A stretch of 64,000 bases of DNA from contig NC_020506.1 in assembly GCF_000344785.1 (NCBI RefSeq), positions 2,418,001 to 2,482,000 of the forward strand, read 5' to 3'. Below, in pieces: positions 53,874 through 64,000 of the stretch. The notes under the pieces were generated by a model, which saw only the letters and a list, made by a program, of their open reading frames with translations, did not search any database and was not told the origin of the DNA. Within the stretch, counting starts at the first letter, position 1, and each line of letters starts with the position of its first letter. The position numbers were made by a program, and so were the translations under genes. This DNA is from Corynebacterium callunae DSM 20147. Its GTDB lineage: Bacteria > Actinomycetota > Actinomycetes > Mycobacteriales > Mycobacteriaceae.

Positions 53874-53932
53874 ACCTACCTCCCGCACATTAGGCGCGAT
53901 GTGTAGCGTATTTAATGTAGTGCTCACAACAA

Positions 53933-53964
53933 AAAGCTCCGATCCTGTTAAGGATCGGAGCTTT
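53933..53964 (-). terminator. Terminator of porH-porA
   Basis: AAAGCTCCGATCC and GGATCGGAGCTTT form a 13-base perfect stem around six bases, followed on the minus strand by TTTTTG. Confidence 0.88.
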
Positions 53965-53989
53965 AAGGATTTAAACCTAAGGGTTTAAA

Positions 53990-54127
53990 TTACTTAACCA
54001 GTCCGAGGAGGTCAGCAACTGCGCCAGCCCACTTGCCGGAAGCAGTAAAGAAATCAAGAAGCTCAGCAACGAGGCCGGTGGAAGAAAGGGTGTTTACGTT
54101 GTCGAGGAATTCAACAAAGTTGTCCAT
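53990..54127 (-). CDS. porA: Cell-wall channel protein PorA
   Basis: A 45-residue peptide beginning MDNFVEFLDNVN and ending in SGKWAGAVADLLGLVK. It lines up along its whole length with C. glutamicum PorA, with the shared KWAGAVADL end. PorA has no signal peptide, is O-mycoloylated, and forms the main cation channel of the mycolate outer membrane together with PorH. The strong ribosome site AAAGGAG lies before ATG 54127. It is downstream of porH in one transcript. Confidence 0.93.
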   Translation of the reverse strand: MDNFVEFLDNVNTLSSTGLVAELLDFFTASGKWAGAVADLLGLVK

Positions 54128-54207
54128 TTTTAATCTCCTTTAGAGAATTTTAAATACGGGTGAAGGGAAAAGGCTTCTAGGCACTTACCTAACAGCCATA
54201 TTGAAAA

Positions 54208-54381
54208 TTAAGAGGAGAGGCCTTCGAAAGCAGCGCTGGTTGCGTCAGCGTTGTCACCGAAGTTCTCGAAGAACGCGATGATGCCCTTGAGTAGATCAGG
54301 GATCATGGTAAGAGCGGTGCCGATGTTGCCACCAAAGGTGGAGTAATCGTCAAGGTTGTCTGCGAGAAGGGAAAGATCCAT
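54208..54381 (-). CDS. porH: Cell-wall channel protein PorH
   Basis: A 57-residue acidic amphipathic peptide, MDLSLLADNLDDYSTFGGNI at the start and TSAAFEGLSS at the end, matching C. glutamicum PorH in length and in the FGGNIGTAL segment. It forms hetero-oligomeric channels with PorA in the outer membrane and is mycoloylated on Ser. The start is ATG 54381 after AAGGAG; a longer reading adds leader codons. The 80-base gap to porA and the single terminator indicate a bicistronic message. Confidence 0.93.
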   Translation of the reverse strand: MDLSLLADNLDDYSTFGGNIGTALTMIPDLLKGIIAFFENFGDNADATSAAFEGLSS

Positions 54382-54811
54382 GAGAAATCTCCTTAAGAGG
54401 ACCAGCAAGGAGCTGGTGAAGGTTGCCAGTTTGCTAACGTCCTCAGGACGTCACTCACACATTCAATCACATTTTTGACAACCGTCAAGACGATTTGCAA
54501 AGTTTTTTATCTTCCATCAAGCTCTAATTTATTAATTTTTCATAAATAAAATTGCCAAGTATTTTAGCTTGAACTGGGGATATGTGGATTTTTAAGGCTA
54601 ACTTAAGGAAAACTTTTCTATACAACTATCAAAACATGTAACAAGAATTTACAAGGCTGCGATTAAGGCCACACAACTTGATAGGATCATTTTTACCCAC
54701 CCCCATCAGAGGGTAAGTGGTGAAAATCTTAACCCACCCGGCGGTAATTAAGAGATCACCTCTAATGCTACGGTGGCCAGGAAATCGTCGAAAAGCGCCC
54801 TAAAACGCCAA
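54382..54811 (-). promoter_or_regulatory. porH-porA leader and promoter region
   Basis: An AT-rich gene-free region. It holds a near-perfect 15-base palindrome ACGTCCT-C-AGGACGT at 54437-54451 that would be in the 5' leader, and the inverted repeat TTGAC-AACC-GTCAA at 54475-54488. A dispersed-motif copy is at 54787-54796. The promoter cannot be placed exactly. Confidence 0.5.
54787..54796 (+). repeat. Dispersed motif GTCGAAAAGC (intergenic copy)
   Basis: Exact copy between the groEL2 terminator and the porH promoter region. Confidence 0.7.
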
Positions 54812-54846
54812 ATAAGCTCCTCCCGCAAGAAGCGGGAGGAGCTTAT
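54812..54846 (-). terminator. Terminator of groEL2
   Basis: ATAAGCTCCTCCCGC and its complement form a 15-base stem with a 5-base loop just after the groEL2 stop. Confidence 0.88.
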
Positions 54847-54867
54847 CGGTATGAGAGGTTAGAAGGC

Positions 54868-56632: not shown

Positions 56633-56659
56633 TTAGCACTCATACGAGCAGAGTGCTAA
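56633..56659. promoter_or_regulatory. CIRCE operator (HrcA site), perfect
   Basis: TTAGCACTC-N9-GAGTGCTAA is an exact match to the CIRCE consensus, about 120 bases upstream of the groEL2 start. HrcA binding is family knowledge. Confidence 0.95.
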
Positions 56660-56766: not shown

Positions 56767-56799
56767 GCGTTTCCAGGCTTTTTAAGAGCCTGGAAACGC
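56767..56799 (-). terminator. Terminator of the GTPase operon
   Basis: GCGTTTCCAGGCT and AGCCTGGAAACGC form a 13-base stem with a 7-base loop, downstream of the small membrane protein gene. Confidence 0.82.
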
Positions 56800-56835: not shown

Positions 56836-57117
56836 TTAAACAAAGTAATCAGTACTCCACCACAGCATCATTAATGCAGCCACCACCAGCACCGCACCAA
56901 CGGCAGTAACAATCCAAATGGCGAGCTTAATGCGACGCTTACGGTTTTCTTTCCGAACCGCCGCTAGCCTTTCCTCGGATTCTCTTACATGGCGAATATC
57001 GGTGCCTTGTTCCGCAAAAAATCCATCATTAAAATCTGCTCCGCCAAATCCGCCAGTGGCTTTTTTAGCTGCGGGAGCTTCGCCCCACACAGGGCCTTGA
57101 GAATGTCGCGGGCTCAT
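56836..57117 (-). CDS. Small membrane protein, last gene of the GTPase operon
   Basis: The 93-residue product has a polar N-terminal half with GGFGGADFNDGFF, a charged amphipathic stretch (RHVRESEERLAAVRKENRKRR) and one C-terminal membrane segment (about 70-90) ending WWSTDYFV. It is a tail-anchored type protein with its bulk in the cytoplasm. The ATG at 57117 overlaps the GTPase stop as ATGA. No family is recognised. Confidence 0.75.
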   Translation of the reverse strand: MSPRHSQGPVWGEAPAAKKATGGFGGADFNDGFFAEQGTDIRHVRESEERLAAVRKENRKRRIKLAIWIVTAVGAVLVVAALMMLWWSTDYFV

Positions 57118-58436
57118 CGTCCCCACCTCCAGAATCGACGTTTTTTAGGTTCAGCTGCGGTCTCGGTAGCTGGGTTTGAGAGCGGTGCTTGTTCAGCGGC
57201 GAGCGCCTGCTCTATTCCCCCACCCATAACTGCTGCTTGGCCAGGGAATTGGCCGGGGAACTGGCTGGTGACCGGTGCTGTTCCTAAGGCCGCTGCATTA
57301 CCCCACATCACCTTGGGCAATTCTTGATAAACCGGGCCATTAAAAAGACCATGCTCAGCCAAAACATCACGAATGGGATCTAAGCATCTAAATGGCGCAA
57401 TGCCGGTACGCGCAATACGATCGCCCTCCGGTGGCGCACCCAAAGCTGAGACCGCAAAGCAGGAAAAATCATAATTTTGCACACCCAACAAGGGTTGATT
57501 GAGCTGGTTAAGCAATTGGGTGGCATCTAAACATTCCAACATGCTGCGGATTTCTAGATCCAGCAGTTGAATACCGGTGCGATCAAAAGGTTGATCAAGG
57601 GCTGCGCTATCGCGTCGGAAGGTGGCGCCGAAATTACGCATAACCCGCTGCCAATTGACCATATTTGGACCGCTATAGTGCAGATGCTGCTGGTTAACCT
57701 CAGAAAGCCGCTGCATGGTGTCAAACTTGGAAAGGCACAGTGAAATCTTAGGTCGGTGTTCCTCACCCAATACCCTCAATACGTTGCGTAACACGATGGT
57801 GGGGCCATCTTCCCCTACCTCGGGGCTTTCTACGGAGCCTTCCAAAAGCTGGCGAATACGTGGTACTGCCATGGGGTCAAAAAGGAAGATAATGCGGTCG
57901 GCGTATTTGAAGAAGTCCAGCTCGCTTTGGCGTTGTGCAAAATTTTCTTCCTGCAGGTCTTCACCCGCCACATCGCGGAACACCACAAAGAGGCGCTGGC
58001 CCTGATGCGCTGGGGTGGAGACATCAAAAATTAGCGGGCGGGTTTGGTGTGCATCCGCAGAAGAAGCCGGAGGCGTAGGAGGCAAAAGACCCATCTGTGC
58101 AAACAGTGGGTTCTCATATTTGTCCTCATAAATGCGGCGTGTGTGTTCATCAGCACTGCGGAAAGAACCACCGTTGGCAATAACCAGCTTGCGCAGCAGC
58201 TTCACAATCACTGCAATATAAAGGCTTTTTCCGGAGGAACGGTCGCCTGCCATGGCAAAGGTAATAGTGCCAGAGCCCTGCCAGCCTTCGGGAAGTTGGT
58301 ATTCTTCACGGTCTTCCACATAAGGGGAAACAACTGCGTCGGCCGGCATTTCCTTAAAGGTAAAAGGACATTTAGTGGGCAGCAGTGCTGATTCTGGGCC
58401 TTGGGTTTCAGGCTCTTGAGTTAAATGATCAATCAT
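57114..58436 (-). CDS. P-loop GTPase-like protein (double-GTPase type)
   Basis: The 440-residue protein carries Walker A AGDRSSGKS at about 63-71, a switch-II-like FRDVAGEDL at about 155, and LSKFD (a variant of NKxD) near 237, all signs of a TRAFAC-class GTPase. The layout resembles the DO-GTPase2 group of actinobacteria as I recall it. A Cys-Pro-Phe near residue 23 and an unusual Pro/Gln-rich tail (TSQFPGQFPGQAA) ending in basic RRFWRWGR suggest membrane contact. It overlaps both neighbours by ATGA and so is strictly coupled with the vWA protein. Confidence 0.75.
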   Translation of the reverse strand: MIDHLTQEPETQGPESALLPTKCPFTFKEMPADAVVSPYVEDREEYQLPEGWQGSGTITFAMAGDRSSGKSLYIAVIVKLLRKLVIANGGSFRSADEHTRRIYEDKYENPLFAQMGLLPPTPPASSADAHQTRPLIFDVSTPAHQGQRLFVVFRDVAGEDLQEENFAQRQSELDFFKYADRIIFLFDPMAVPRIRQLLEGSVESPEVGEDGPTIVLRNVLRVLGEEHRPKISLCLSKFDTMQRLSEVNQQHLHYSGPNMVNWQRVMRNFGATFRRDSAALDQPFDRTGIQLLDLEIRSMLECLDATQLLNQLNQPLLGVQNYDFSCFAVSALGAPPEGDRIARTGIAPFRCLDPIRDVLAEHGLFNGPVYQELPKVMWGNAAALGTAPVTSQFPGQFPGQAAVMGGGIEQALAAEQAPLSNPATETAAEPKKRRFWRWGR

Positions 58437-59437
58437 GAACTTTTCTTCTCTGTAGCTAGCTGCTGGTTTTCAAGATCTGGAGCAGGAGGTGGAGTCCATC
58501 CGGTTAGGGCATCAAACATGGCGCGAGCTGGAATTGCCAGGCTCATAAGATCTTGGGCTTTAAGAGCCTCAATAAGTTTTGCATCAACGTGGGTAACACT
58601 AATGCCGTGGTCCACCAAGGGTTTACGAGAGCTCAAAAGGTGCACCTTCTTATTGGGCAGATTAACCACTTCAATGGGAAGGTCATCGGAAAGCACCAAC
58701 ACAGCGTCGCCTGGATCAATTTGGGCTAGGTCAACATTCCAGCCCACCTCGCGTGCGGGAGTAATTCGGCTGCTCAAAGCCCGGATAACTTCGGGGGATT
58801 CCAGCATTTCCATAGGCCGGGAGGAACTGCTGGTGAGCAGCCGGATGGATCTACCCTGGCTGGAGGTGGATAGCACTCCGGTGGCAAAGGCGCACATTGC
58901 ATCAAAAACTTCACTTGAGGTGCTGAATTTCATGGAGGCTGAAATATCAACCAGCACGCTAACAGCGGTACGCGGTGGTTCAGAAACACCATCCCGGTCC
59001 AAGGTGCGGCGCAGTGCAGAGCGCACCCCGGAGGCATAAACATCCAAGGAACTATCGGTATTGGCATCGCCTGCTTGCAAGCGCACAATCTCAAATGTGG
59101 TGAAGATGCCTAACACCGGGAAAGACCGCAAGCCACCGATAGCAAAGGTAGGAAGATCTAGGCGCACTTCATCGCCATTTCCGTCATTTAGGGTGATGGA
59201 GACAAAAAGCTGGGTGTCGATGGGAAATTCACTGCGGGTGTGATCAGGCACGATGGAAATTTCAGAATTTCCAATAGGATTTCTAATCGCCAAAACATTG
59301 CCACGGCGATTAGTTTCCATGCGTCCGGCCTCGATCTCAAAACCGGTTGGGCCCGTAATATCAAATTCAATACGCGCAATAAAACCGCGGATGGGAACCT
59401 CAAAAGATTGCCCTGAATCCAAACGAATATTGTTCAT
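58433..59437 (-). CDS. von Willebrand factor A domain protein
   Basis: The 334-residue protein has an N-terminal beta-rich part (about 1-115) and a vWA domain with an intact metal-site motif in VLVDISASMKFST (DxSxS) and a later DDLPIEV loop. Metal-dependent adhesion sites of this type bind partner proteins. No signal peptide is present, so it acts in the cytoplasm. It starts one base overlapped with the upstream stop (TGATG) and ends overlapped with the GTPase start, suggesting a stoichiometric complex. Confidence 0.8.
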   Translation of the reverse strand: MNNIRLDSGQSFEVPIRGFIARIEFDITGPTGFEIEAGRMETNRRGNVLAIRNPIGNSEISIVPDHTRSEFPIDTQLFVSITLNDGNGDEVRLDLPTFAIGGLRSFPVLGIFTTFEIVRLQAGDANTDSSLDVYASGVRSALRRTLDRDGVSEPPRTAVSVLVDISASMKFSTSSEVFDAMCAFATGVLSTSSQGRSIRLLTSSSSRPMEMLESPEVIRALSSRITPAREVGWNVDLAQIDPGDAVLVLSDDLPIEVVNLPNKKVHLLSSRKPLVDHGISVTHVDAKLIEALKAQDLMSLAIPARAMFDALTGWTPPPAPDLENQQLATEKKSS

Positions 59438-61401
59438 CAGCGCTTGTCCCTTCCTGAAGTGGGTTGACCACCATTAATTCTTTGTCTTTCGGCCAAAATT
59501 TCTGCAGCTACCAGCACAAAAACATCTGTAATGGCTGTTTTAAAGTGTAGATACTTCGGATCGGTATTTTTTTGAATCTCTGCAATATAGGCATCTTGGC
59601 GCCCACCCATATCCACAGCGTCCACGTCCTTAACCGCAATTCTGCGCGCGACCTGAACAAATGGCTCGGCATTCACGATGCCCCCACGCTGCAATTCAGC
59701 ATTTACATGGCGTTGCACGGCATCAAAACACAGTGCACCAATCGTGGCCGCAATTTTATTATCGCGCTTAGCTCTACCGGAAATAACTGGCTTAAAAAGC
59801 AAACGCAAAGCCACCGCATAATAAAGCCGCAGCATAGAAGCAGCATGGGAATTTGACGTGCTTTTTAGATACTGCTGCTCCATCATCTGCTCCATGGCAG
59901 CAATATTTTCATCACGTTTCAGCCAAGCCAACACACTGCCCAAAGGCATTGACCAGTGCAATTGATTAAGCACGGTATCAAAACTCGGCGAAGTAGGTTG
60001 CTTTTCGACGCGGCGCTGCTGCCTCACTGCGTTGCGCGCTACCTCGCGCAAAAGGTAGTGCTCCTGGGGCAAAACTGGTGTTTTTTCCCAATTACTCAAA
60101 GAGTGGAAATTGCTCAAAGAATCCAGGAATTTCCTATCCTGCGCTGTAGCTTCGCTAAGCAAACCGGTTTCCAAAAGGAAGTTAAGATAAGACATCAGTA
60201 TCCGTACCGAGGCATCATGCAGAGTGTACAAAGCAGCCAGGGCACGAGCTGAAAGTGCAGGATCAACCGGCAATTCCGGCCAGCTAGATTCTTCTAAGGC
60301 AAGTTGCGGATTATCAATAACATCATTGATAAATTCCATATCAATTGCTTGATAGGAGGTGGGCACAAATTCCTCCTCCAAATGCTGCTCGGCGACGTCG
60401 AAAAGCGCTTGGGTAACCCCATCGCCGCGGTTCTTAATCACCCGCGCCAAGCCATCGCCCAATTGGGCATGGCTTATCGCAAAATCCGAGATACCAGTGT
60501 TGATCTGGATTAATTCATCAACAAGCTGCTCTGAATCACTGCCCTCGACAAAAACCCCGGCGGTCATCTGCGCCCAGGTGCCATGCTGAGTTGGCGTGAT
60601 ATTTGCTGGATCAATCAACTGTACATCGACAATTTCGCGCAACGCTGCGGCATCTTCCGGCGGACACACATAGACCGTAGAGAAAGTGGCATTAGCGATG
60701 GCCTGAGGGAAGGTGGCGGCGCGCTCAAAAGTGGAAAAATGCAGCAAGGTGCGAGCTTCCTCAGGTGTCAAAGTAGAGGACAAAGCCTCAATCCAATAAG
60801 CCGCCTCATTGGAACTCTTAAGCAATAACACCGCACGCTTACACCCAGCTTGCAGGACATCTTGGAGCTGGTAAAGCACTTCTCTGCGATCGCCAAAGAG
60901 CTCATCAACCATCATCCAGGCCATCGAAATATCAGCAAAAACCCCAGGTCTTGGCTCTGTTAGTGCAGCATTAAGCTCCACCGCGTTAACCGCCTGTGCG
61001 CGAAATGGGGTCAGCAAATCCGGCGAGCGATAAAGATCAATGGGATAAATTGCTCCCATCGGCTCATCAAGATCTTGATCAATAAAAGCATGGGTAAAAA
61101 CATTTCCCGGGCGCCCGGTAGCATCCTTGCCGGCTGGAACTGACTGCAAAAAAAGCGCCGAATTGCTACGTGGCCGGTATTCAAAACGCCGTGGCAAAGC
61201 ATCAATGTCAGTGCTACTAATAAAATCATCGAAGCTTTTTACCGGCACCAAACTGGTTGGCGCCGCAGCAGAAACATCTTGTTGATCCTGCACACTTGCC
61301 CGCAAGGTGGGACCAACATTCCACCCACTGCGTCGGGTTTTGCTCTTAAAAGAGGCATAGGTAACGTGCGCCCAGCGTTGGTTCAGGGCACTTTCCATCA
61401 T
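59437..61401 (-). CDS. GTPase-associated protein 1-like (GAP1)
   Basis: A soluble 654-residue protein. The first 230 residues (QRWAHVTYASFKSKTRRSGWNVGP, then NVFTHAFID, YPIDLYRSPDLLTPF) resemble the GAP1 N-terminal domain found next to double-GTPase genes; the rest is helical with many Leu/Gln and no catalytic motif. Two dispersed-motif copies facing each other lie in it (60000 and 60397). The link to GAP1 rests on memory of the family and on the neighbours, not on a search. Confidence 0.6.
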   Translation of the reverse strand: MMESALNQRWAHVTYASFKSKTRRSGWNVGPTLRASVQDQQDVSAAAPTSLVPVKSFDDFISSTDIDALPRRFEYRPRSNSALFLQSVPAGKDATGRPGNVFTHAFIDQDLDEPMGAIYPIDLYRSPDLLTPFRAQAVNAVELNAALTEPRPGVFADISMAWMMVDELFGDRREVLYQLQDVLQAGCKRAVLLLKSSNEAAYWIEALSSTLTPEEARTLLHFSTFERAATFPQAIANATFSTVYVCPPEDAAALREIVDVQLIDPANITPTQHGTWAQMTAGVFVEGSDSEQLVDELIQINTGISDFAISHAQLGDGLARVIKNRGDGVTQALFDVAEQHLEEEFVPTSYQAIDMEFINDVIDNPQLALEESSWPELPVDPALSARALAALYTLHDASVRILMSYLNFLLETGLLSEATAQDRKFLDSLSNFHSLSNWEKTPVLPQEHYLLREVARNAVRQQRRVEKQPTSPSFDTVLNQLHWSMPLGSVLAWLKRDENIAAMEQMMEQQYLKSTSNSHAASMLRLYYAVALRLLFKPVISGRAKRDNKIAATIGALCFDAVQRHVNAELQRGGIVNAEPFVQVARRIAVKDVDAVDMGGRQDAYIAEIQKNTDPKYLHFKTAITDVFVLVAAEILAERQRINGGQPTSGRDKR

Positions 61402-61412
61402 GGGGTCACCGC

Positions 61413-63614
61413 CTATCCCCTATTCCAGGTGTTCAGACGCAGTTGCGCAGGATCCGGATCAATCAAAGCATTAACCGGCGCCATTGAATCAGCAGGTTGA
61501 CGGATAAAAAGTCGCATCAGTGAGCTAGCTGGGTAGCTAAGAATCTGGGGATCAATTTCCCAATACTTCACTACCTGCTGGTCAACTGGACGCAAAGATC
61601 CAGCGCTAATGCCAGGGCTAAACTGCGCCTCATCTGGTTCATTGGTGGTGCCATCAATCATGCGAGTAAGCACCTCATCACCATCTTCTGGTTCCAAGGG
61701 CAAACGGCTGCGGTGAATACGCAAAGTAAATTGATCAAGCTGCTGGGAGGCTGGTTGATCACGATCAGAGAAAATGGCCAAGAAGAGCCTTCCTCCAATC
61801 ACCTGCAGCTGATAGCTAAATTGGCGCACGCCACGGTAGTGCAATACCACTGGCTCGCCCCAAATCTGGTGTCCCTCATAAACACGAGAAGCAAAAAGTG
61901 CGATATCTCCAGGTCCAGGCAGTGGGAAACGCATTCCACCCTCATCTTGATAAGCCTCCTGATGGATGCTGACCAAGCTGGTTCCCGGGGTTTCTGGGGT
62001 CGGTCCAATGTGCTGCCCGGTGCCGGTTTCGCCAAAAACAGCCGTCACCTCATGAGCTTCCTCCGACCAACCGAAAGTAAGCAATTGGCTATTCACCCGC
62101 TCATGCAAGGTGGCATTGGTAATGGCGCCAACGCGCACCCGCGAATGGGTTTTACCAACCTGAGCTTGGTTACCCACCACGTTTACTGGGGTAATAAAGA
62201 TGGAATACCAATCATCAGGCCAGGTCACCGTGCAGGAGGATTTTTCCCCCTCGAGGTCATTGGCCCAATCGCGACGCGCCAGACCAAAGCCCTCCAACTG
62301 ATCAACTTCAATTTCATTAAATTGCAGGTCAGGATCAGGGGCCGTGGCAGTGCGATAAATCCTTACTTCACCAGAATGCGGTGGTTGCCAGGTCACCTTG
62401 AAGGTGGTGTCAAAGCCATCATCTTTTTCCACCACCTGAATAGGCACTGCCATGACCTCCGCAGGAACATTAATGGTTACTTCTTCTGAAGGAGCCGAAG
62501 CCAATTCCAAACCATTAATGGTGACAAAGCGCTGCGCGACAAATTTATACTCTCGACCACGATGTTGTGGCTGGAAACGGAAACCCTGCAAATTAGCAGT
62601 ATCGGTGGCAATCTCATTACGCCTAGCCAAAGTCAAGCGCTCATTTTTGGGCACGGCAAAAACAGCAACCCGGTGGGTATGTTCAGCTGATTCCCACTGG
62701 CCTTTGACCTCTGAACCTGCGGCAGAGAGCTCAATTCCCGAAATGGGATGGATATAGGATTTCTCCCCAATCAACACCGGTTGAGATTGCACTGCATCAT
62801 GTTCGGAATTCCCCTCATACATCCACACCTGATACATACGATAAGCAGTGGTCAAAGGAGCAGAATCTACCCATTTGGTGCCCACGGTAACTGCACGATG
62901 CTCACCAAAATCTGGATCCAGCTCAAAGGTTTGTTCATCACTGACAATGCGGAAAAGACGTGCCTTTTTTTGAGGAAGTTCTGGCAGTTCCCAATCCAGG
63001 CTTAATCCGCCCTGTTGATCTGGAACAACGCGCAAGCCCGCCCCAGCCAAAGGTTCTGGCCTGGCGAAGGCATCAAGGCGGGCAAATTCAAAGGCCGCCC
63101 AAGAGCGCAGGTTTTTATCTTCCTGTGCCGAATTATCTGCCTTGGCACGACGTTTGCCACCACGGCGTGATCCAGACTCAGTTGCTTTGAGGATATCTTT
63201 AGCAGCGGTGGCGGCAGGATTATCCTCCCTATGACGAGAATGCCTCCGCGGAGTTGGTTTGGATTCTGCCGGAGGAGTTTCAACCAGAGCTTCAACTGGC
63301 GCTTCAGGCTCTGCAGTCTTTTCTGAGGGTTCTGCTTTAGGCACTTCTACGCTCAGGTCTGGTTGAAAAAGCAGCGGGTCACTGCCGTCTTCAATGATGT
63401 CGGTGGTGCCCACGCGGGCATAACCGACAACACGACGCAGTGGCTTTGCCCAAACTAAAAGCTCAGGAAATTGTCCACCGGTTTTGAGTAGTTCCGGGTT
63501 TTCCGCAGCAGCAATAAGTGCCTCATCTTCGGGAAGTGAGTCCGCAGAATAACGCTCTCTGGCAACATCACGCCAGGTTCTAAAAGCACTAAGGATTTGG
63601 TATTCGGTGGACAT
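61413..63614 (-). CDS. Multi-domain beta-sandwich (FN3-like) protein of the GTPase operon
   Basis: The 733-residue protein begins with a small helical domain, then an acidic Pro/Glu linker (SVEVPKAEPSEKTAEPEAPV) and a basic one (RRHSRHRE, GGKRRAKA), and from about residue 200 several beta-rich repeats with FN3-like signs (FKVTWQPPHSGEVRIYRTA, AYRMYQVWMYE). No signal peptide or membrane segment is visible, so these Ig-like repeats would be intracellular, which is unusual. It stops 11 bases before the GAP1-like start region and its ATG follows the upstream TAA directly. Confidence 0.7.
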   Translation of the reverse strand: MSTEYQILSAFRTWRDVARERYSADSLPEDEALIAAAENPELLKTGGQFPELLVWAKPLRRVVGYARVGTTDIIEDGSDPLLFQPDLSVEVPKAEPSEKTAEPEAPVEALVETPPAESKPTPRRHSRHREDNPAATAAKDILKATESGSRRGGKRRAKADNSAQEDKNLRSWAAFEFARLDAFARPEPLAGAGLRVVPDQQGGLSLDWELPELPQKKARLFRIVSDEQTFELDPDFGEHRAVTVGTKWVDSAPLTTAYRMYQVWMYEGNSEHDAVQSQPVLIGEKSYIHPISGIELSAAGSEVKGQWESAEHTHRVAVFAVPKNERLTLARRNEIATDTANLQGFRFQPQHRGREYKFVAQRFVTINGLELASAPSEEVTINVPAEVMAVPIQVVEKDDGFDTTFKVTWQPPHSGEVRIYRTATAPDPDLQFNEIEVDQLEGFGLARRDWANDLEGEKSSCTVTWPDDWYSIFITPVNVVGNQAQVGKTHSRVRVGAITNATLHERVNSQLLTFGWSEEAHEVTAVFGETGTGQHIGPTPETPGTSLVSIHQEAYQDEGGMRFPLPGPGDIALFASRVYEGHQIWGEPVVLHYRGVRQFSYQLQVIGGRLFLAIFSDRDQPASQQLDQFTLRIHRSRLPLEPEDGDEVLTRMIDGTTNEPDEAQFSPGISAGSLRPVDQQVVKYWEIDPQILSYPASSLMRLFIRQPADSMAPVNALIDPDPAQLRLNTWNRG

Positions 63615-64000
63615 TTAGAACTCCCCCATTCCTGGCAGCTGCGAGTTTTTGTTATTGCGGGCAGTGAATCCACCGTTATTAAAACGGTTGGGATCGACAC
63701 CAGAGGTTTGGAAGTTTTCATCGACTGGCATGCCAGCAATTAGCTCCTGTGATGGCCCCGTTGGGTCAGGGAGTCGGAATGCAATGTCTTCCTTATTAAC
63801 TGGCCCACTGACCTGCAGCAACACTTCACTCAAGCCGATGGAATCAAAGGCATTGATATGGGATTCGTATTTGCACAGACTTGGATCCAAATCCAAAATG
63901 TCATGCACGCGACCAAGTGGCGTAGCAATTTCACCATTAAAGGAACCTGTGGTGAGGTGCTCTTTAAGAGAAGAATAGGTGGGCGCAGGTACCTGTTTTC
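63615..64000 (-). CDS. 3' part of a further GTPase-operon gene (cut by the window edge)
   Basis: The frame is open to the window end: PTYSSLKEHLTTGSFNGEIA, then TPLGRVHDILDLDPSL and on to NKNSQLPGMGEF. The gene starts beyond 64000. The visible part has no known motif; its last 40 residues are Asn/Gly-rich and probably disordered. It directly precedes the FN3-like gene (TAAATG), so it belongs to the operon. Confidence 0.7.
   Translation of the reverse strand, partial: KQVPAPTYSSLKEHLTTGSFNGEIATPLGRVHDILDLDPSLCKYESHINAFDSIGLSEVLLQVSGPVNKEDIAFRLPDPTGPSQELIAGMPVDENFQTSGVDPNRFNNGGFTARNNKNSQLPGMGEF

Follow-up and report, generated by a model that had tools for sequence, protein, structure and literature searches.

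Genome comparison has already brought bacterial tubulin relatives, von Willebrand factor A (vWA) proteins and GTPases together in common operons. Operons combining FtsZl1, vWA proteins and a GTPase were predicted by Makarova and Koonin 2010 (PMC2875224), and GAP1-N2 DO-GTPase systems, with an actinobacterial tubulin theme, by Kaur 2020 (PMC7159879). In PMC2875224, the T6–H7 part and the C-terminal tubulin domain of FtsZl1 were not identified, and C. glutamicum cgR_2627 is described by a reviewer as a vWA protein bearing a signal peptide. In PMC7159879, one tubulin gene is counted in the actinobacterial systems and two in the firmicute ones. The present analysis deals with a nine-gene operon of this kind, which reaches into one end of a window of 64,000 nucleotides (positions 2418001–2482000 of the 2.93-Mb genome of Corynebacterium callunae DSM 20147, contig NC_020506.1). 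The cassette belongs to a kind already predicted and named, known since 2010 and apparently never taken to experiment: a literature search, beyond whose reach most subscription journals lie, found no experiment on it, and the 20 papers listed, of 293 that contain at least one of the presumed C. glutamicum locus tags, were unrelated to it. An earlier note on this DNA, made from its letters alone, had said that similar actinobacterial GTPase-associated sets are named without a tested role, which fits Kaur 2020. At stake is a system built on a tubulin and conserved in many actinobacterial genera, with Mycobacterium, Rhodococcus and C. glutamicum among its carriers; GAP1-N2, Tubulin_2 and DO-GTPase2 were all recovered in the last of these, used as a genome control.

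The operon spans 16.6 kb on the reverse strand. From 5′ to 3′, it encodes a protein with three transmembrane (TM) segments, a secreted vWA protein, a Tubulin_2/FtsZl1 protein (Tub), a two-TM protein of 934 residues (TM934), a fibronectin type III (FNIII)-type protein, a GAP1 protein, a cytosolic vWA protein, a DO-GTPase and a small TM protein. The window takes in the last five genes and the 3′ end of the sixth; outside it, upstream, lie the rest of TM934, Tub (1198 codons), the secreted vWA protein (915 codons) and the small membrane protein (186 codons). With slightly less than even confidence, this operon is read as the actinobacterial tubulin type of the GAP1-N2 DO-GTPase system, present in the window by its downstream part, and working, as proposed below, with two tubulins. 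Like the systems of Kaur 2020, it unites a DO-GTPase, GAP1-N2, a protein in the FNIII position, a tubulin with a large helical part and a vWA protein bound to the membrane, and its DO-GTPase, a member of the TRAFAC clade, keeps the conserved Walker B glutamate (E159 here). It differs from them in the position of GAP1 upstream of the GTPase and in a separate cytosolic vWA gene; moreover, the two GTPase zinc ribbons, usual but not universal there, are not in the window copy, HRDC and FNIII are not detectable here by Pfam, and, next to the single tubulin counted there, a second tubulin fold is suggested by the model of TM934. With the FtsZl1 operons of PMC2875224 it has in common a Tubulin_2 protein accompanied by vWA proteins and a diverged GTPase; the difference is that a complete tubulin fold with a helical insert is seen in the model here. 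This tubulin-like protein, the defining theme of the system, was missed in the earlier note because it lies beyond the window edge.

Tub (1198 residues) matches Pfam Tubulin_2 (PF13809) with 213.5 bits. Its structural model, built from 35 sequences (mean predicted local distance difference test score, pLDDT, 88.3; predicted TM-score, pTM, 0.79), superposes on CetZ over 307 residues (Z 20.8, root-mean-square deviation, rmsd, 3.5) and on tubulins over more than 330 residues (Z 18–20), from model residue 1 to about 1030, that is along nearly the whole tubulin chain. The best Foldseek match is FtsZ (E 9.5e-4), and 49 of the 50 matches listed are FtsZ, CetZ, TubZ or tubulin. Since residues 369–715 are almost wholly helical in the model, which carries these tubulin matches, Tub appears to have the complete tubulin fold, divided by an inserted helical region, which is apparently new. 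The T1 and T4 loops of its GTP pocket are intact in 35/35 aligned rows. By sequence, solved-structure relatives were found neither for Tub (E limit 0.01) nor for GAP1 (E limit 0.1), and the cytosolic vWA protein and TM934 each gave two weak, unrelated-looking matches.

The AlphaFold2 model of TM934 (32 sequences, pLDDT 82.0, pTM 0.70) points in a similar direction. Rows 1–19 of its structural comparison are all tubulin or microtubule entries (Z 8.4–10.0, 223–246 residues, rmsd 4.2–5.7), the matched chain in axonemal, cofactor and lattice entries being taken as tubulin from the entry title and chain length. The next rows, pore-forming proteins and Rab GTPases, stand at Z 7.2 and below. As in Tub, the matched residues flank a helical insert on both sides (from 7 to about 883–890), and the two TM helices (541–559 and 591–609) lie within this insert. 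TM934 is thus suggested by its model, with moderate confidence, to be a second, membrane-anchored tubulin-fold protein, apparently also new. The GGxG[SA] G-box was found in 0/32 rows within the first 300 residues, and TM934 is therefore filed not as a GTP-binding tubulin but only as tubulin-like in fold. Such a degenerate second subunit would reconcile the counts of one and two tubulin genes. Both models speak to the question, raised in 2010, of whether the tubulin fold of FtsZl1 proteins is complete; of the options considered by Makarova and Koonin, that of elements present but diverged would fit the models best. As a separate observation, TM934 seems split in two in two more distant loci, L089 and L091 (genomes G137 and G324), where the open reading frame (ORF) lying between Tub and the TM934 match has, by eye, a TM934-like N-terminus; in a third, L090, the matching gene is longer (1250 residues).

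The two proteins end alike. In the window genome, Tub ends in TLPGQGEF and TM934 in QLPGMGEF (its last eight codons, 63618–63641, reverse strand); the corresponding pairs are SMPGEDLF and DMPGEDLF in C. parakroppenstedtii, NLNDLDDTF and DLSDLDETF in Corynebacterium sp. HMSC036D02. This resemblance was scored with BLOSUM62 over the last eight residues, keeping one genome per cluster of less than 60% Tub identity and permuting partners; 31 gene ends running off the sequence (25 of them of the GTPase) were dropped, and a p of 5e-5 is the floor of 20,000 permutations. Tails from the same genome score 8.90 over all 31 representatives, against −1.47 for tails from other genomes (p 5e-5), and 15.24 against −1.67 over the 17 Corynebacterium representatives (p 5e-5). 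With clusters of less than 50%, nine Corynebacterium representatives still give 11.89 against −4.18 (p 3e-4). The mean is positive for none of the 27 control gene pairs (5,000 permutations), three of which reach p < 0.05: Tub with the secreted vWA protein (0.0094), Tub with the cytosolic vWA protein (0.020) and TM934 with the cytosolic vWA protein (0.040). An earlier test on 15 representatives, which has some genomes in common with the later one and is not independent of it, had given 15.67 against −2.76 (p 5e-5), with 2/27 controls below 0.05. The last residue is hydrophobic in 30/31 Tub and 27/31 TM934 proteins, against 2/31 for the secreted vWA protein, 5/31 for the FNIII-type protein and 2/29 for the cytosolic vWA protein; Tub and TM934 tails still mostly end hydrophobic outside Corynebacterium, and both are disordered in the models. 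In Corynebacterium, then, the tails of Tub and TM934 match within a genome and change together, which is apparently new: the main text of PMC2875224 has 0 occurrences of “tail”, and the available text of PMC7159879 has 0 of “C-terminal tail” and of “short linear”. The tails may be read as one docking motif carried by two proteins for one lineage-varying partner, and, being short and mutable, they offer a means of finding out which proteins bind each other, which makes the system testable. Apart from this, alike tails were also noticed in the distant loci L090 (DTGV with DSGI) and L091 (DTTGIL with DPTGIL). Three loci, L036, L114 and L115, break the pattern, TM934 ending there in RLTNLDSLQAIQ and Tub in DNPFGGPF, for which a frameshift or a lost tail is possible.

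The gene set recurs widely. The loci were drawn from named genomes, in which 196 relatives of Tub were found and the best 80 retained; this sample therefore leans to close relatives. All eight core genes are found in 68/80 loci, in identical order in 68/68; 11 of the remaining 12 loci stop at a contig or locus end, and in L171 (Nocardia), the one incomplete locus away from a sequence end, the cytosolic vWA gene is not detectable. The junctions have median gaps of −4 to +2 bases, apart from the 47 bases that precede Tub. Order and tight junctions thus recur across genera beyond chance, and the earlier note, which had staked its reading beforehand on conserved co-occurrence across genera, is borne out on this point by the single order. 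Genera with the cassette include Corynebacterium, Mycobacterium, Mycolicibacterium, Rhodococcus, Gordonia, Williamsia, Nocardia, Microlunatus, Salinibacterium and Curtobacterium, together with an Arthrobacter metagenome-assembled genome. Within Corynebacterium, GAP1-N2 is found in 18/61 genomes and Tubulin_2 in the same 18 (Fisher p 7.6e-16, uncorrected for kinship); TM934 is matched in 19/61, strongly in the same 18 and in one more by a marginal match of 85 residues (E 4.8e-4), taken as chance. In 296 genomes of the class, GAP1-N2 occurs in 32, Tubulin_2 in 20 and both in 8, on different contigs in 5 of these 8: the presence of GAP1-N2 does not imply the tubulin cassette. Besides the window, groEL flanks the cassette in 3 of 17 genus loci, with other surroundings in other clades; either the cassette has moved, therefore, or its surroundings have. 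Copies are also carried by two Rhodococcus megaplasmids. No GAP1 relative was found in viral_contigs by a search that reaches close relatives only, and phages gave no match to the GTPase. Orthologues of the first set share with the protein of the window genome a median identity of 43.5% for the GTPase, 37% for Tub, 32% for the secreted vWA protein, 28% for the three-TM protein, 26% for the small TM protein, 24.5% for the FNIII-type protein, 22% for GAP1, 20% for TM934 and 18% for the cytosolic vWA protein, the fastest-changing member. Two further observations concern related genes: DO-GTPase2 is matched without GAP1-N2 in six Corynebacterium genomes (G028, G038, G042, G043, G045 and G052, four of them over the cut-off), which we take as other GTPase systems of the genus, and in another actinobacterial genome (L097, 10993–12123) a weak protein kinase match (E 1.5e-4) stands beside a Tubulin_2 gene, near a diverged GTPase.

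A working of the whole may be sketched from these elements. Tub, with its full tubulin fold and intact GTP pocket, would pair or co-assemble with the membrane-anchored TM934, which is devoid of the G-box. Their tubulin-like assembly would lie beneath the membrane, with the extracellular vWA protein above it, and the two acidic-hydrophobic tails would dock on one common fast-evolving partner. The DO-GTPase and GAP1 would then act as a switch, loading or releasing the assembly when the envelope-facing part senses a cue. Put more generally, it is quite possible that the actinobacterial FtsZl1 systems are two-tubulin machines, each made of a GTP-binding tubulin and a membrane pseudo-tubulin whose insert has turned into a TM coiled-coil hairpin, with a shared, co-evolving docking tail, an operon-encoded receptor and a DO-GTPase/GAP1 switch. 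A physical complex of fixed stoichiometry may be supposed, and likewise a role in defence or stress, as in the earlier note. Eukaryotic tubulin, EB1 and CLIP-170 carry EEY/F tails, which are bound by CAP-Gly domains. The tails described here are similarly short and acidic, end in an aromatic residue and are common to a tubulin and a partner protein; they differ in sequence, partner and history, so that the relation is one of analogy, not membership. If true, the proposal would give the recognition of tubulin tails by CAP-Gly proteins a counterpart in bacteria.

Several results weigh against the two-tubulin proposal, and some of them favour simpler readings. TM934 could be an unrelated coiled-coil membrane adaptor, its tubulin likeness reflecting a common alpha/beta arrangement, which is possible, if rather doubtful. 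A Z of about 10 is no more than moderate, and the structural-comparison tool itself warns that best matches at Z 7–8 are typical of unrelated folds; Foldseek gave no match for TM934 at E ≤ 0.001, the 50 matches listed being led by pore-forming proteins, and its profile comparison with Tub (hhalign) was not significant (E 0.24, 0.96 and 0.21). Sequence homology between TM934 and Tub is therefore not shown: the best of 20 later region pairs reached E 0.011, which is not counted as evidence because the region was picked after seeing the earlier result. An unrelated adaptor would nevertheless hardly explain why the first 19 rows are all tubulin or microtubule entries, standing above everything that follows, or why the matched residues lie on both sides of the insert, as they do in Tub. 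In Tub itself, the T7-type NxDxxD/E motif was not found in 5/6 rows checked, the sixth lying outside the aligned fold, so that assembly-driven GTP hydrolysis is doubtful. The tails also have their limits. Of the 17 Corynebacterium scores nine are at least 20, four lie between 1 and 6 and four are negative; the 14 representatives outside the genus have unpaired tails (1.21 against 1.93, p 0.66), as have the five others at less than 50% (−2.8 against 2.8, p 0.95), and outside the genus the idea of twin tails common to the entire family was rejected. The tail receptor is a guess, its candidates being the cytosolic vWA protein, whose kind of metal-ion-dependent adhesion site (MIDAS) classically binds an acidic side chain through its metal, GAP1 and the FNIII-type protein. 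In the more distant loci L089–L091, finally, Tub, TM934 and the secreted vWA protein are recognisable, and GAP1, the GTPase and the cytosolic vWA protein are not. A by-product of coupled translation, through ribosome-binding sequences at gene ends, or of recent gene conversion, would be a very unlikely source of the tail match: both genes do overlap or touch the next start codon, and GGGGAG occurs within the tails of the window genome, but a ribosome-binding-like core is present in only 6/14 Tub and 5/14 TM934 ends, equally tight junctions elsewhere in the operon go without tail matching, as the 27 controls indicate, and synonymous codons differ in 10/10 pairs listed.

Other alternatives concern what the machine is for. 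An anti-phage or anti-invader conflict system, with FNIII/vWA sensing, a DO-GTPase switch and containment by a tubulin assembly at the membrane, was predicted in PMC7159879 and looks unlikely here. Its patchy, all-or-none presence in 18/61 genomes of the genus, its clade-dependent chromosomal surroundings, the megaplasmid copies and the fast change of the cytosolic vWA, TM934, GAP1 and FNIII parts would all suit such a system. On the other hand, the six window proteins have no PADLOC-DB match, the literature search gave no experimental support, and gene content and order are fixed, where an arms race would be expected to exchange effectors. A machine that remodels the membrane or envelope, in housekeeping or under stress, in line with the FtsZl1 operons of Makarova and Koonin 2010, is a serious possibility: the same protein set is described in PMC2875224, three of the proteins here are membrane proteins, the extracellular MIDAS is intact in all 28 secreted vWA proteins, and the order is conserved over many actinobacterial genera. 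Its weak point is that the cassette is absent from 43/61 Corynebacterium genomes and is thus not required for growth in the genus. As regards the cue, fixed gene content would mildly favour the envelope state, and patchy presence a phage.

The remaining proteins of the cassette were also compared with their orthologues. The DO-GTPase (440 residues, 57114–58436, reverse strand) matches Pfam DO-GTPase2 (PF19993) with 37.4 bits (cut-off 27), and the intact P-loop and SKxD announced in the earlier note are there as AGDRSSGKS (58224–58250) and SKFD (57720–57731), with DVAGED at 57957–57974. Residues G69, K70, D155, A157–D160 and K237–D239, which include the Walker B E159, are invariant in 22/22 orthologues. 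The first 60 residues hold one lone cysteine, so that the window GTPase is without N-terminal zinc ribbons; cysteine pairs are visible by eye in orthologous GTPases such as those of L135 and L127. The GAP1-like label was equally well founded, GAP1-N2 (PF20013, 67.2 bits) and GAP1-M (PF20014, 39.6 bits) both exceeding their cut-offs of 24 in the 654-residue protein (59437–61401, reverse strand). Its GxDxxxRxxN stretch (61102–61131) is invariant in 28/28 orthologues and looks like a putative binding or catalytic site. The 733-residue protein (61413–63614, reverse strand), called FN3-like in the earlier note, holds the position and order of the FNIII protein of GAP1-N2 systems in Kaur 2020; this correspondence carries the putative FNIII label, neither an FN3 nor an HRDC Pfam match being found among 30 orthologues.

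The cytosolic vWA-like protein (334 residues, 58433–59437, reverse strand) does have the DxSxS site, as DISAS at 58934–58948, which keeps that part of the earlier vWA assignment; the window copy has no Pfam match, however, and those of its orthologues are all weak (vWA-TerF-like in 5/27, VWA_2 in 2/27). The site is kept in 25/27 orthologues and was broken in 4/20 of an earlier orthologue set, D164 being invariant (27/27) and D251 nearly so. In the secreted vWA protein, which has signal-like and TM segments with one TM helix, the DxSxS MIDAS is intact in 28/28 orthologues; VWA_2 is matched in 22/28 and VWA in 19/28 (best 2e-10), and in the window-genome copy only at E 0.019. The 186-codon first gene encodes three hydrophobic segments. 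Membrane attachment would thus come, judging by predicted segments, from the secreted vWA, three-TM and two-TM proteins, whose genes reach beyond the window. Two membrane clues of the earlier note did not hold: the basic C-terminal tail of the GTPase is present in 2/22 aligned orthologues, and tail-driven membrane assembly of the GTPase was rejected as a general feature; the tail-anchored last gene is matched by its profile in 4/20 and 8/80 loci. This small protein, with one C-terminal hydrophobic segment, is clade-specific rather than core (56836–57126, reverse strand; 96 residues from GTG 57126 or 93 from ATG 57117).

From the 3′ end upwards, the intergenic gaps are −13, −4, −1, 11, 0, −1, 76 and 8 bases. 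Re-reading the sequence confirmed every junction reported earlier: an ATGA at 57114–57117, common to the gene pair provided that the last gene begins at that ATG (the ORF list puts its start at GTG 57126), a second ATGA overlap at 58433–58436, a single common base at 59437, an 11-base gap at 61402–61412 and TAAATG at 63612–63617. What had been described as a six-gene operon is indeed one operon; its unit is nine genes, since three further genes lie upstream of TM934, and the sixth gene seen was the last 127 of 934 codons of TM934 (63615–64000, reverse strand), the predicted membrane-anchored pseudo-tubulin, whose gene extends to window-frame position 66419. A divergent gene lies beyond the 5′ end. 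Downstream, the operon is separated from groEL by a 15-pair inverted repeat (56767–56799), which has a clear T run on neither strand but is likely to be the operon end. The stretch L002 (19 kb) gave no Rfam match at gathering scores. The ORF list shows no ORF of at least 80 residues at 53928–54867, a stretch flanked by a PPK2-like gene and groEL; its counterpart in C. glutamicum presumably holds small porin genes. A perfect inverted repeat before groEL (56633–56659), which we take to be CIRCE-like, belongs to groEL and is independent of the operon.

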